Shown here: positions 13,365 through 19,937 of the stretch, piece after piece
How the letters are laid out: every line of letters starts with the position of its first letter
Position numbering within the stretch: position 1 is the first letter of the stretch
Virus record (IMG/VR): IMGVR_UViG_3300005663_000785
Coordinates: 1-21,081 of that record
Length of the DNA: 21,081 nucleotides
Source: a virus
Reading direction: 5' to 3' (one strand)
Program-made: the position numbers and the translations under genes
Notes under the pieces: generated by a model
Seen by the model: only the letters and a program-made list of their open reading frames with translations
Told to the model about the DNA's origin: nothing
The model's database searches: none

Positions 13365-13523
13365 ATGCCGTATGCAGTTAGGAAACAGGGAGACAGGTGG
13401 ATTACATATAATAAAGATACTGGTGATGTGAAAGGGAAACATGCAACGAGAGAAGAGGCTATGTCTCAGATGCGATTATTGTACCATGTTAAGGGTGGGG
13501 GAAAACTGACAAAGGCAAAATGA
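13365..13523 (+). CDS. 52-aa small basic phage protein
   Basis: The start has AAGGAAG as ribosome site. The product MPYAVRKQGDRWITYNKDTG is followed by DVKGKHATREEAMSQMRLLY. The order beta hairpin ('xRWxTYNKxTGxVKGxH') then one helix ('TxEEAMxQMRxLY') matches a small protein type that is frequent in phages near structural genes and has no known function. The TGA overlaps the ATG of the HNH gene (ATGA). Confidence 0.75.
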   Translation: MPYAVRKQGDRWITYNKDTGDVKGKHATREEAMSQMRLLYHVKGGGKLTKAK

Positions 13524-14101
13524 CAGACGAGTTAAGGTGTAAGAAACAAGTGGATGGCTTAGATGTCTTTCTGGATGGTTATAGATATTGCGTGATGCAA
13601 CCTTGCTTGGATTGCGGGCAGGTGAGAAAAGTGCGGATAAGAAACGGAAAGTCTGAGAGTAAGCGTTGTCGGGGGTGTTCTGCTAAAGTTAGATGGAGTG
13701 AATTATTAGGTGATAAAAATCCCTTTTGGAAAGGAGGGCGAACGAGGCATACCCAAGGTTATATTTTAGTATCAGTCCCAAATGACAGTTTTTTTGCATC
13801 TATGGTTTTTAGGCGTGGGGCAAAGGGAAGGGAAAGATTGTATATTTTAGAACACCGCCTCGTTATGGCAAAACACTTAGGCAGGTGTTTGCAGTCTTGG
13901 GAAATCATACATCATAAAAACGGAATTAAGGATGACAATGGAATTGCGAACTTGCAACTAGTGAGTGATGATAGACATAAGCAAATCACGTTATTAGAGA
14001 ATAGGATAAAACGCTTAGAGGGGAAGGTTATTCTATTGGAAGCAGAGAATGTTTTATTAGGGGTTGCACATGAAGCGAGGGATACAAGGGTTGATTTTTG
14101 A
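13520..14101 (+). CDS. HNH homing-type endonuclease with zinc knuckle and C-terminal zipper
   Basis: Residues 111-153 (EHRLVMAKHLGRCLQSWEII, then HHKNGIKDDNGIANLQL and DDRHK) form the beta-beta-alpha-metal HNH_3 nuclease motif. The paired His131-His132, Asn134 and Asn144 and the leading Glu-His (111-112) are as expected for active members. The N-terminal part carries two Cys pairs, C29/C32 and C50/C53, probably one structural zinc. The C-terminus (about 155-180) is a leucine-zipper-like helix, TLLENRIKRLEGKVILLEAE. Such free-standing HNH genes nick DNA of related phages lacking the gene and spread by repair. Here it is fitted between structural genes by an ATGA overlap at its 5' end. Confidence 0.88.
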   Translation: MTDELRCKKQVDGLDVFLDGYRYCVMQPCLDCGQVRKVRIRNGKSESKRCRGCSAKVRWSELLGDKNPFWKGGRTRHTQGYILVSVPNDSFFASMVFRRGAKGRERLYILEHRLVMAKHLGRCLQSWEIIHHKNGIKDDNGIANLQLVSDDRHKQITLLENRIKRLEGKVILLEAENVLLGVAHEARDTRVDF

Positions 14102-16040: not shown

Positions 16041-16086
16041 ACCGCTGAAAAATCAGATAGAGTAAGGGATGAAGACTCTTAGCGGT
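16041..16086 (+). promoter_or_regulatory. Structured RNA motif, copy 1
   Basis: Outer stem ACCGCT/AGCGGT (16041-16046 with 16081-16086) encloses a 5' internal loop GAAAAATCAGAT, an inner stem AGAGT/ACTCT and an apical loop containing GATGAAG. The same layout, with different stem sequences but the same AAAATCAGAT and GATGAAGAC, follows at 16094-16144. It is downstream of the capsid gene, with no U-run, so it is not a terminator. Confidence 0.6.
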
Positions 16087-16093
16087 GCAAAAA

Positions 16094-16144
16094 CTTTGTC
16101 TAAAATAAAATCAGATGTTTGGGTGATGAAGACACCCGACAAAG
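16094..16144 (+). promoter_or_regulatory. Structured RNA motif, copy 2, abutting the Shine-Dalgarno site
   Basis: Outer stem CTTTGTC/GACAAAG (16094-16100 with 16138-16144), 5' internal loop with AAAATCAGAT, inner stem GGGTG/CACCC (16121-16125 with 16133-16137) and loop ATGAAGA. The last base of the outer stem is the first G of GGAG for the 246-aa gene, so folding could limit ribosome access. Confidence 0.65.
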
Positions 16145-16153
16145 GAGAACAAA

Positions 16154-16894
16154 ATGGCGAACATGGGTTCAAAGGGAATAACTAGGTATGAGGAAACCTT
16201 TGCTGCGGACAATATAGGTAGTGCAGGCAATGGTGTTGCCTGGCTTGAGACCAATGATGCTGGCACGGCTTTTGCCAGAGCGGTTGCAGCGGGTAAGGGA
16301 TTGCACGTTTTTGGGGCAACTTCCACTGGTGGTGCTGACAGACATGAGTTCCTCAGTGATAAATTTATGTTCACTGGGCAAGAGGGGCACTCATCGGTTG
16401 AAATACTGCTCCAGTTGGGGGCTATTACAGATGTAGCCTTTAACTTTGGGTTCTTTGATGCTGTTACTGGGGCAAACAGCATCCTACCCGCCAAGATTGA
16501 TAGCGAGGTCATCACAGGTCAGGTTGCTGATGGGTTTATCGGTTTTCTTTATGATTCAAATGCAACCTATGATGAGCTCCACTGCTTCTGGGCTAATGGT
16601 GGTGTTGATACCACAACGGCAATAGCCGACCTGAGAATGGTGGGTTTAGCTCCAATAGCCTCAAAGTGGCTATACATGAAAGTTGAGATGCAGGACAGGG
16701 GTTCAGGTAAGGGTGTCAGGGCAACCTTTCTTACGGTAGACTCTAATGGTCGCAGTGCGGAGAAAGTCTTTAATACTTCGGTAGATAGAGACCTTCCTCT
16801 TGACTATTACCTAGGGGTGATAAATCGAACTACCACTGCGGTCAACATCTATCTTAAAGGTGTTGCCTGGGAACAATCAATACCTAATATGTAA
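16154..16894 (+). CDS. 246-aa virion structural protein (beta-sandwich-like)
   Basis: The gene lies directly after the capsid gene, with AAAGGAG as ribosome site. The product is rich in Gly, Ala, Thr and alternating hydrophobic residues. It suggests a jelly-roll or lectin-like beta sandwich: EETFAADN at the start, then HSSVEILLQLGAITDVAFNF, WLYMKVEMQDRGSGKGVRAT and YYLGVINRTTTAVNIYLKGV. This is the layout of concanavalin-like phage structural domains used in decoration proteins or fibres. No catalytic residues are evident. Candidate roles are capsid decoration or a head or tail fibre subunit. The name is based on position and predicted fold only. Confidence 0.7.
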   Translation: MANMGSKGITRYEETFAADNIGSAGNGVAWLETNDAGTAFARAVAAGKGLHVFGATSTGGADRHEFLSDKFMFTGQEGHSSVEILLQLGAITDVAFNFGFFDAVTGANSILPAKIDSEVITGQVADGFIGFLYDSNATYDELHCFWANGGVDTTTAIADLRMVGLAPIASKWLYMKVEMQDRGSGKGVRATFLTVDSNGRSAEKVFNTSVDRDLPLDYYLGVINRTTTAVNIYLKGVAWEQSIPNM

Positions 16895-16907
16895 TTAAGA
16901 AGGTTTT

Positions 16908-16972
16908 TGGGGATTGTCCTGAAATCAATCCCCACTAAGATTCAGGTGCTGACCTTTCAGCATCTTAGGAGG
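16908..16972 (+). promoter_or_regulatory. Compact pseudoknot-type RNA upstream of the fibre-like gene
   Basis: P1 is TGGGGATTG/CAATCCCCA (16908-16916 with 16926-16934). P2 is CTAAGA/TCTTAG (16935-16940 with 16963-16968). P3, inside P2, is TGCTGA/TCAGCA (16947-16952 with 16957-16962) with a CCTT loop. The only other unpaired segment, TTCAGG (16941-16946), is perfectly complementary to CCTGAA in the P1 loop (16918-16923). Helices abut without spacers. P2 contains the first two bases of the AGGAGG site (16967-16972), so the fold can control translation of the 966-aa protein. Confidence 0.7.
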
Positions 16973-16982
16973 AAAAAACAAT

Positions 16983-19883
16983 ATGGCTGTTTCTAAAACA
17001 CATAAAGGGTGGCAATTCGACAAACATAACGGCCGCCTAAACTTTTACTACGAGGGAACACGGGTTGGTCATATCACTGCAAGTGGTATGGACTTAGCCT
17101 CTGGCTTAGACTACACCATTGATGGTGTTTCTGCCAGTGGTGGAATCAGTAACCTTGACGAAGCCTATGACGGTGGTGGTTCTGGTTCGGGTAGGACTAT
17201 CACTGTTGATAGTAATGCAGTTGTTCTGGCTGGTGATGAAGCAACACAAAACATTTTTGTAATCACGAATACAGCGGGTACAGGTGCGTTGATTGACTTA
17301 ACCCATACCACCACATCATCCAAGGATATTGATGGTACTGGCTCAACTTGGTCTGTAACTGGTGCTGGTGCTGCGGTATTCACTACCATTAGTGGCACTA
17401 CACTTACCCTGAGTGCTGATATTGATATGTCAGCTTCGGCTACGGGTACTTACGACATCATCTTGAAGGATTCTGTGGCTGACGCACTTTCAATTAGGCG
17501 AGCTTCTACAGATGTGATAGTTTTTGACACCTCTACCCCAAGGGTAACTATTACACCTGCTACGACTATCACTGGAGCTTTGACTGCTTCCAGTACAATT
17601 ACTGGAGGGGGTATACTTACCATCAGCACGGGTGGAGCTAGCATTACAGGTAACACTACAATCACGGGAGACCTTACCGTTACAGGCACCATGGACTGGG
17701 GTTCTAGTCTTACGGTAGACGAGCTAATACTTGATACTGATGGGGCTGCTCTAGGCGCTACTGTGTGCGGTTTATGGCGAGATAATGGTGGGGATGCTTC
17801 TTTCCAAGCCATTGCGGGTAAAGCAGTCAAACTTCTCATAGCTGGTACCAGCGAGATGGAAGTTGGTGATTCAGCAACCATCGTTAATGAGGCAGGTGCT
17901 AACAGAGACTTCAGGGTAGAGAGTGACAATTTGGAGTACGCTCTCTATGTAGATGGTGCTAAGGACAGTGTGGTAATCGGAGACAATACCGACATTTCTG
18001 ATGTAGACTATCGCCTTATGGTCGGTAATGTGGCAAAGACGTTAGCCACTGGTCAGAGTGCGGCTTTACTTTATGTCGCACCAACTGCCTCTACAACGGA
18101 ATTCACTTCAGGGACTCATGGCTATATAGCCACGGCATACTTCGCAGAACCGAACATCACCAATGCTGGTGGTGGCACTATAACCACTGCTGCAACTGTT
18201 TACATCGCTGACGCTCCAACAGAGGCTAACAGCAACAACGCTGCTCTCTACATAGCGTCTGGGGCACTGACGGTTCTCTCTGGGGCAGTCACCTTAGATG
18301 GTGGCGACTTCCTTTTCAACAACCTTGGTGCCGACCTTAACTTCAGGGCAGAAAGTGACAACTTACAGTATGCCTTGTATGTTGATGGGGGTAAAGACTG
18401 TGTAGTGATTGGTGATAATACGGATGTATCCGATGTGGATGTTCGCTTGTATGTTGGTAACGTAGCTAAAACACTACTCGCCAATCAAAGTGCAGCTATA
18501 CTCCATGTAGCACCAACGGCGTCAACAACCGAAGCACCGAGTGCTAGTACTCATGGTTATATTGCTACCGCTTACTTTGCGGAACCAAACATCACAGAGG
18601 GTACGGGAGATACCACTGTCGCTGCGACTGTCTACATTGCAGATGCTCCGACTGAGGCTGAAACTGACAACGATGCCCTTTATATCGCATCAGGCGATAC
18701 CACAATGGCTTCGGGTAGCTTTACCATAAAATCTGGTAGTATCGTTCTGACTTCAGGCAACCTTACTTTTACAGCAGCTAGTGACGTTATAATCGCCGCT
18801 GCTACGGGTGCTGCGCTAGAAATCAGTGACGCTTCAACTAAATTCTACGCCATTGATACCAGGGTGACTACTTCTGCTGTAACCACTCATGCCTTTGATA
18901 TATCTGACTACACATTAGCTTCTGATTCCGCAGTCGTGGCAACGGGTTTGAGTTTAGCGGCACACACTTTGACCTACTCTGGTAGCAACACAGTAACAAC
19001 CCAGTTGGATACCGTGGTCATTGGAACACGAACCGTTGCTGGTAGTGCAGTAACAGTTAATGAGTCCAACTCTTTACTCCTAGTTGCTCCTACTGAAAGC
19101 GGAAGCATTACTCTTGTTGCTACTTCTGCCCTTCGGATAGTCAATTCTGGTGGTACTCCCACAAATCAGTATGGTATCTACATCGAAGACTTGACCGTAG
19201 GTGCTACCCTGGATGTGGGTATCTACCTTGCTGGTGCTGACTCAGCGGCTATATATGTAGCTGCTGACCCAATCCACCTTGCTGACAACGTAAAACTCGG
19301 ATTCGGTACTGGTACAGGGGTCGGTGCTTTTGACGCTTCAATCTACTACAGTAACGCAGACCTAGTTATCGTTCCAAACGACATTGGTACTGGTCTGGTG
19401 AATATTGCGGGTGGTATAGAATCTAGTTCAGCGGCCGAAATTATTATCAGCGTTGATAATGCTGCCATAACCGTAGGCACTGAAGGTGCCATGAGAGTTC
19501 CTTTCCGTGCTACTACGGATGCCGCTTTTAATGATGCCGCTGGTGGTGACATAGATGGCTGCATAGGTGTCCAGCAAGATACGGACAATGGCAACCTCGG
19601 AACTTTTGAAGCTAGGGTAAATGGCTCTTGGGTTAGTGTAGCCACCGCAGGTATTGAGATTCAGGGGAAGACTCTGGGAAGTAGAAAGAATCCCAGTAAC
19701 AAGTGGCACGATAATCAGATAGTCGGAGAAGGCTTGGTAGACGAAACCATTTGTTCCACCTGTGGTAAGAAGATGAAGGTTGGAGAACCTATTGTTCTGT
19801 ACCCCAACTTTGAACGCACAGACAAGAACGATGGCACATCAAGTCTCCATTGTGTCTTCGCACATCTTGCTTGCGCCAAGTAG
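16983..19883 (+). CDS. 966-aa repetitive fibre-like protein with C-terminal zinc-binding module
   Basis: The N-terminus (KGWQFDKHNGRLNFYYEGTR, then VGHITASGMDL) resembles the adaptor start of many phage tail-fibre or appendage proteins. The body is Thr/Ser/Gly/Ala-rich beta-repeat sequence with phrases such as TTITGALTASSTITGGGILT, likely a beta-helix or intertwined trimer. Residues 307-427 and 453-571 are two homologous units (ESDNL.YALYVDG.KD.VVIG ... IADAPTEA). The end has C924-x2-C927 ... H956-C957-x3-H961-x2-C964, a probable zinc site unusual for a fibre tip. No endosialidase or intramolecular chaperone motif is seen. The AGGAGG site is partly inside an RNA fold. Receptor-binding or virion-surface function is inferred. 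Confidence 0.75.
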   Translation: MAVSKTHKGWQFDKHNGRLNFYYEGTRVGHITASGMDLASGLDYTIDGVSASGGISNLDEAYDGGGSGSGRTITVDSNAVVLAGDEATQNIFVITNTAGTGALIDLTHTTTSSKDIDGTGSTWSVTGAGAAVFTTISGTTLTLSADIDMSASATGTYDIILKDSVADALSIRRASTDVIVFDTSTPRVTITPATTITGALTASSTITGGGILTISTGGASITGNTTITGDLTVTGTMDWGSSLTVDELILDTDGAALGATVCGLWRDNGGDASFQAIAGKAVKLLIAGTSEMEVGDSATIVNEAGANRDFRVESDNLEYALYVDGAKDSVVIGDNTDISDVDYRLMVGNVAKTLATGQSAALLYVAPTASTTEFTSGTHGYIATAYFAEPNITNAGGGTITTAATVYIADAPTEANSNNAALYIASGALTVLSGAVTLDGGDFLFNNLGADLNFRAESDNLQYALYVDGGKDCVVIGDNTDVSDVDVRLYVGNVAKTLLANQSAAILHVAPTASTTEAPSASTHGYIATAYFAEPNITEGTGDTTVAATVYIADAPTEAETDNDALYIASGDTTMASGSFTIKSGSIVLTSGNLTFTAASDVIIAAATGAALEISDASTKFYAIDTRVTTSAVTTHAFDISDYTLASDSAVVATGLSLAAHTLTYSGSNTVTTQLDTVVIGTRTVAGSAVTVNESNSLLLVAPTESGSITLVATSALRIVNSGGTPTNQYGIYIEDLTVGATLDVGIYLAGADSAAIYVAADPIHLADNVKLGFGTGTGVGAFDASIYYSNADLVIVPNDIGTGLVNIAGGIESSSAAEIIISVDNAAITVGTEGAMRVPFRATTDAAFNDAAGGDIDGCIGVQQDTDNGNLGTFEARVNGSWVSVATAGIEIQGKTLGSRKNPSNKWHDNQIVGEGLVDETICSTCGKKMKVGEPIVLYPNFERTDKNDGTSSLHCVFAHLACAK
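17901..18695 (+). repeat. Two homologous internal units of the fibre-like gene
   Basis: Bases 17901-18263 and 18339-18695 encode units of about 120 residues, offset by 146 codons. Protein identity is high (for example VGNVAKTL, HGYIATAYFAEPNIT, TVYIADAPTEA in both), while synonymous positions have diverged widely. The duplication is therefore old and held at protein level. Confidence 0.85.
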
Positions 19884-19886
19884 AAT

Positions 19887-19919
19887 AAGGGCTTGGGGGG
19901 AGAGCCTTAAATCTCCCCC
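19887..19919 (+). promoter_or_regulatory. G-rich hairpin or H-type pseudoknot before the 291-aa gene
   Basis: GGGGGAGA (19896-19903) pairs perfectly with TCTCCCCC (19912-19919). In addition AAGGGCT (19887-19893) can pair with AGCCTT (19903-19908) with one bulge, which together gives an H-type pseudoknot. No U-run follows. AAAGGAGGG lies 8 nt further on. Likely an mRNA stability or translation element. Confidence 0.5.
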
Positions 19920-19937
19920 ATAAATAAAGGAGGGTAT

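Follow-up and report, generated by a model that had tools for sequence, protein, structure and literature searches.

A candidate RNA leader with two pseudoknots at the Shine-Dalgarno sequence of a viral fibre-like gene

A structured, pseudoknotted RNA adjoins and partly contains the Shine-Dalgarno (SD) sequence of a fibre-like gene in the viral DNA analysed here, as an earlier note on this DNA had proposed and as the stems, the SD overlap and comparison with relatives bear out; about 40 related viral contigs have the same structure immediately before a gene of this kind. Its helices, both of its pseudoknot pairings, its position, its overlap with the SD and its repeated loss or replacement are established by comparison of the homologous sequences. 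It is rather likely that the element is a cis-acting RNA leader of the fibre-like gene, composed of an SD-proximal core module and an optional 5' module, which would limit or gate initiation, and it probably determines the amount of fibre-like protein that is made. We read it as a putative new phage cis-regulatory leader, recorded in no catalogue searched. To our knowledge, structured regulatory RNAs are hardly known in phage late genes, and the known repertoire would gain a very small pseudoknot fold in which the SD is embedded.

Position and layout of the element

The window, by which we mean the whole 21,081-base IMG/VR virus record, contains genes for a terminase, a capsid protein (named by its place in the structural module and by its relatives, without a family model), an HNH endonuclease and a fibre-like protein. 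The RNA occupies the gap between a gene for a 246-residue protein with a predicted lectin fold and the fibre-like gene (Table 1). Three stems are present at 16908-16968 with the place and sequence given in the earlier note, comprising 8 (P1), 6 (P2) and 5 (P3) Watson-Crick pairs; this architecture had 0 occurrences when the whole 21-kb window was copied 40 times by a first-order Markov model, and the 71-nt core has a nested minimum free energy of -25.7 kcal/mol (z = -3.1). P1 is extendable by one pair, T16908:A16934, and P3 can be written with a flanking extra pair, (T)GCTGA/TCAGC(A). The element exceeds the interval first given (16908-16972) and includes a 5' leader from about 16895. Its two pseudoknots, PK1 and PK2, have just 3 bp each in the window itself.

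Table 1. Features of the RNA element and of its flanking genes in the window.
Feature	Position	Strand	Evidence or remark
Upstream gene, 246 aa, predicted L-type (concanavalin-like) lectin fold	16154..16894	+	AlphaFold pLDDT 82; Foldseek matches legume lectins and 2a5z, E about 1e-7
Stop codon of upstream lectin-fold gene	16892..16894	+	RNA begins right behind the stop, in relatives too
PK1 5' strand (AGG), leader	16901..16903	+	Partner 16918-16920; leader:loop complementarity covaries over 33 loops
PK1 U-rich linker (TTTTT)	16904..16908	+	Sequence; U/C-rich in most relatives
Hairpin P1: GGGGATTG (16909-16916), loop TCCTGAAAT (16917-16925), CAATCCCC (16926-16933)	16909..16933	+	Stem sequence fully replaced in relatives, pairing kept
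PK1 3' strand (CCT), P1 loop	16918..16920	+	A-rich GAAAT follows; covariation over 33 loops
P2 5' strand (CTAAGAT)	16935..16941	+	Partial anti-SD mimic; CCUUA-type in many relatives
Conserved unpaired UC	16942..16943	+	UC-A nearly invariant; T8, C9, A10 and T13 of the alignment invariant
PK2 5' strand (AGG), bulge	16944..16946	+	Partner 16953-16955; covariation
PK2 linker, single invariant U	16947..16947	+	Alignment of homologues
P3 5' strand (GCTGA)	16948..16952	+	Paired in 100% of cells, 36 homologues
PK2 3' strand (CCT), P3 loop	16953..16955	+	Pair columns 20:27 and 19:28
P3 3' strand (TCAGC)	16957..16961	+	Covariation of homologues
P2 3' strand (ATCTTAG)	16962..16968	+	Continues straight into the SD; P2 = CTAAGA(T)/(A)TCTTAG
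Shine-Dalgarno AGGAGG	16967..16972	+	Initial two bases within P2; SD at P2 3' edge in relatives; ATG of the window at 16983
Fibre-like gene, 966 aa	16983..19883	+	N-terminal anchor motif [KR]GW..D..N..L...v.GT common to relatives; C-terminus highly variable

Relatives were gathered through capsid matches in viral contigs, and matches to the RNA pattern added further contigs of the same kind. In these relatives the RNA follows a gene for a protein of about 220-270 aa and precedes one for a protein of 98 to 966 aa that carries the N-terminal motif given in Table 1; the exception is contig L013, where the bulge deviates (TAAATT) and the [KR]GW motif is missing from the gene downstream. The upstream stop codon lies 9-34 nt, mostly 9-22 nt, before P1, and the start codon 6-14 nt past P2, a position that is constant in relatives. 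A covariance model from which the window and its closest RNA relative (L065) were left out recovered the window element at 42.7 bits (E 1.9e-8) and found no second copy of it within the window.

The Rfam scans are in keeping with the statement in the earlier note that the RNA fits no riboswitch class recognised there. At the gathering score of Rfam 15 the element was unmatched in the window and in 13 + 9 locus sequences, the sole hit being a group I intron in contig L064, and at a relaxed E-value the window region gave no match to it. A DNA-level search for the window genes in 50,697 phage records found none, and relatives of the capsid protein were found neither in phages nor in GTDB genomes, so that these searches brought up no cultivated relative. 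No promoter- or terminator-like sites were found at the element, and both readings were dropped. A literature search, with most subscription papers outside its reach, returned no description of a matching phage motif. A broad RNA pattern matched 66 viral stretches, mostly unrelated coding sequence, and was rejected.

Covariation in the core and 5' modules

The core module was aligned in 36 distinct sequences, one of which (L039) contributes slight noise through misalignment at the 3' end. Membership was decided by the stems, the bulge pattern (mostly UCA..U), the SD and the downstream gene, PK2 pairing not being used, and a small number of descriptor hits that fell in unrelated genes were taken out by hand. 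Across P2, PK2 and P3, standard pairs occupy 93.8% of cells in the 36 homologues, the covariation score is 0.778 against 0.185 for shuffles and 0.235 for the best slid control, and 14 of the 15 pairs show two-sided changes. PK2 alone, which joins the bulge A-N-N to bases 1-3 of the P3 loop, is paired in 94.4% of cells and scores 0.661 against 0.155, with GG:CC, AG:CU, AC:GU and CG:CG types that include GC to CG swaps. The column pair 20:27 is GC in 24 sequences, CG in 9 and GU in 3, with none unpaired, and the column pair 19:28 is AU in 19, GC in 9, UA in 3, UG in 2 and CG in 1, with 2 unpaired; about ten of the 36 genuine core-module descriptor hits have an incomplete PK2 of only 1-2 Watson-Crick pairs. 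The covariation between bulge and P3 loop fits a pseudoknot in which both pairings form simultaneously, and it could also come from two alternating hairpins.

In the 5' module, P1 is rewritten in most relatives with its pairing retained. The leader and the P1 loop form PK1 through pairings that include AGGC:GCCU, AGG:CCU, UGGC:GCCA, AAAGCC:GGCUUU, GGGC:GCCC and AUAGC:GCUAU, and over 33 loops 1 of 50,000 swaps attained complementarity as high as that observed (18 of 20,000 in the initial set of 26), these permutation controls, like those given below, not being phylogenetic tests. Two negative controls, pairing of the leader with the bulge and with the P3 loop, were both at chance. The two modules can occur apart: contigs L076, L206 and L171 have the core only, without P1 and PK1, and PK1-type modules without P2 and P3 stand before other genes at L023:8948, L061:10001, L200:7666 and L198:6188, and also in L021. 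In the window, a lone PK1-type H-pseudoknot (AAGG...GGGGGAGA GCCUUAAA UCUCCCCC) is located at 19884-19920, immediately behind the stop codon of the fibre gene and ahead of the SD of the gene that follows.

Proposed role and alternative readings

In the arrangement that we propose, P2 encloses a tiny H-type pseudoknot in which the bulge A-N-N pairs with the P3 loop, one invariant U joins the two helices and P3 is stacked above. The 3' strand of P2 is the 5' part of an extended SD (U-A-A-G-G or U-U-A-G-G, then AG), so that the SD is predicted to be half buried, with G-A-G-G exposed as a short toehold. A second H-type pseudoknot, with U-rich and A-rich linkers, arises in the 5' module by pairing of the P1 loop with the leader, which comes after the stop codon of the upstream gene. 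The P2 5' strand (CUAAGAU in the window, CCUUA in many relatives) may compete with the 16S anti-SD for the first half of the extended SD, and PK2, together with PK1 where present, would stabilise the state in which the SD is buried. Such a folded state would limit or gate access of the 30S subunit to the SD; translation of the fibre-like gene would be uncoupled from that of the lectin gene before it, and the stabilities of P2 and PK2 would fix its rate; a protein, putatively a phage structural protein, a host r-protein or S1, may shift the balance. A bolder proposal, which we put forward tentatively and consider possible rather than probable, is that these RNAs constitute a phage-specific family of double-pseudoknot translational switches, which respond to a phage or host protein (for instance the lectin, the fibre or the assembly status), set the proportion in which a single late mRNA yields two adhesion proteins, and are carried along in fibre-gene exchange. 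The many sequence variants with natural compensatory mutations, the constant location just ahead of the virion gene that is most exchangeable, and the existence of natural relatives without the element make control of fibre dosage at the level of translation directly testable.

Several characterised systems offer points of comparison. In the gene 32 operator of phages T4 and RB69, a pseudoknot in the mRNA leader, 5' of the SD, is needed for translational control of the adjacent gene (PMC535899); in T4 the ribosome-binding site is found downstream of this pseudoknot, in a less structured region that exceeds 40 nt in length and includes UUAAA, and the pseudoknot nucleates binding of the ssDNA-binding protein gp32 (PMC535899). 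The present element is likewise a phage mRNA leader with a pseudoknot 5' of the SD, but the SD lies partly inside the pseudoknotted stem, the gene encodes a surface fibre and there are two pseudoknots; a pseudoknot upstream of an unstructured UUAAA or UAAA ribosome-binding site was not found, since a start codon 6-14 nt after P2 leaves no room for such an element. The uS4 (alpha mRNA) and uS15 (rpsO) operators contain pseudoknots at or just before the ribosome-binding site, where the bound protein permits or blocks initiation (PMC10931766). The likeness to these operators lies in a pseudoknot at or near the ribosome-binding site, and in the window and its relatives the SD is indeed inside or adjoining a conserved pseudoknotted structure, whereas the fold and the genes differ and the present element is known from sequence comparison. 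In SAM/SAH-type riboswitches the SD strand itself forms a pseudoknot helix and the ligand is bound in a conserved pocket (PMC7367207). With these the element shares a compact H-type pseudoknot that overlaps the SD, whose folding should limit ribosome access; here, however, the pseudoknot joins the bulge to the P3 loop and the SD pairs in the enclosing stem P2, with neither a conserved pocket nor an Rfam match. By analogy, the element resembles all three systems in logic, with no tested defining fold in common.

The main rival to an initiation-limiting leader, above all for PK1, is a role in mRNA stability or processing, in which the pseudoknots, chiefly PK1 behind the stop codon, would block 3' exonucleases and protect the capsid-lectin message, with differential expression of the operon as the result. 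PK1-type modules that lack P2 and P3 stand directly behind other stop codons, such as that at 19884-19920, and before the other genes listed above, and U- and A-rich linkers suit a rigid pseudoknot; the core of P2, PK2 and P3, however, keeps its place relative to the SD and start codon and not to the stop codon, and it survives the loss of P1 and PK1; we regard this role as unlikely. It is more doubtful still that the element resembles the SAM/SAH or preQ1 classes in being a metabolite riboswitch whose pseudoknot includes the SD. A compact pseudoknot adjoining the SD and a core with invariant unpaired U, C and U would suit such a reading, whereas conserved unpaired bases are few and form no extended conserved pocket, the neighbouring gene encodes a virion surface protein and not a metabolic one, and Rfam gave no match at the gathering cut-off (window and 22 locus sequences) or at the relaxed one (window region). 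The sparse invariant unpaired bases (UC and U) argue against a large ligand pocket, and a ligand may still be bound.

A slightly less probable alternative is that the stretch is a conserved DNA linker that aids exchange of the fibre gene by homologous recombination, its RNA structure being incidental. Contigs L065/L193 and L022 are 77% identical over a stretch that comprises the RNA and roughly 200 nt from the start of the fibre gene, and differ in their flanks, and the C-terminus of the fibre is hypervariable; on the other side, it is the pairing that has been selected and not the sequence, and the compensatory changes that rewrite P1, P2, P3, PK1 and PK2 lower DNA homology.

Least probable is the pairing scheme of the earlier note, in which CCUGAA in the P1 loop kisses UUCAGG in the bulge and UCCU in the same loop pairs alternatively with the SD as an on/off switch. 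The exact complementarity of CCTGAA (16918-16923) to TTCAGG (16941-16946) does hold in the window and is retained in L065, L022 and L063, but all 6 bp are found in only 4 of 29 homologues, the remainder having 2-4 contiguous matches, and such disrupted homologues are what that note itself had named as evidence against the pairing. Moreover, own-versus-swapped complementarity is at chance (5343 of 20,000 permutations), the lengths of P1 and P2 are uncorrelated (rho 0.04), P1 is missing in some relatives that retain P2, the bulge and P3, and UCCU, on which the pairing of TCCT with AGGA depends, occurs in only 5 of 29 P1 loops. The bulge covaries with the P3 loop instead (0 of 20,000 permutations). 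We infer that the 6-base match of the window arises because both real pseudoknots happen to use AGG/CCU there, GAA and UUC being conserved for other reasons; the stems are real and probably functional, and the pseudoknot first drawn from them is not supported. The pistol ribozyme has a topology that resembles this abandoned scheme, its P1 loop pairing with the junction between two further helices and a linker holding the cleavage site. In the present element, compared with it through the Rfam scan, pairing of the P1 loop with the junction is not conserved, and P3 and P2 are joined directly, with no counterpart of the linker in which pistol is cleaved.

Loss, exchange and neighbouring sequences

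Of the 78 proteins in a capsid tree, 37 come from contigs in which the RNA was not found. Many relatives without it start the fibre-like gene with GTG 2-12 nt past the preceding stop codon, and others have a plain SD; its absence from many close relatives shows that the RNA is, as judged from these genomes, dispensable. Changes of PK2 letter type on this tree number 14 for AAG, 8 for AGG and 8 for AAC, at least 10, 4 and 3 of which are forced by starred branches, and PK2 differs already between the window (AGG) and its nearest relative (AAG), whose capsid identity is 92%. Since L193 and L022 share the RNA and the start of the fibre gene and not the flanks, the RNA apparently can travel with the anchor domain of the fibre, and therefore some of the changes of state seen on the capsid tree may reflect recombination or exchange of whole modules and not mutation.

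Other features of the neighbouring genes were observed in passing. The fibre gene of the window contains an internal repeat at 17908-18694 (17908-18262 against 18340-18694; 70% identity over 363 alignment columns). A gene for an HNH endonuclease lies within the structural module at 13520-14101, and LAGLIDADG-like reading frames were found downstream of the capsid gene in L018 and L021, near the same genes as the HNH site. The group I intron of L064 (1894-2130; Rfam RF00028, 103 bits) lies at the 3' end of the capsid gene, and the capsid match ends at the intron site, at residue 284 of 293. In L021, two similar lectin-type genes stand side by side after the capsid gene (offsets 236 and 1042), which suggests a duplication of the gene upstream of the RNA.

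A second RNA is present in the window at 16041-16153, between the capsid and lectin-fold genes, and no Rfam match above threshold was obtained for it. It consists of two tandem P1-bulge-P2 copies, the latter adjoining an SD, which have conserved unpaired AAAAUCAGAU and a conserved loop AUGAAGA and differ from each other in their stems. RNA of this type also occurs in L022, with at least one copy in L016, and it looks more riboswitch-like than the fibre-leader element.
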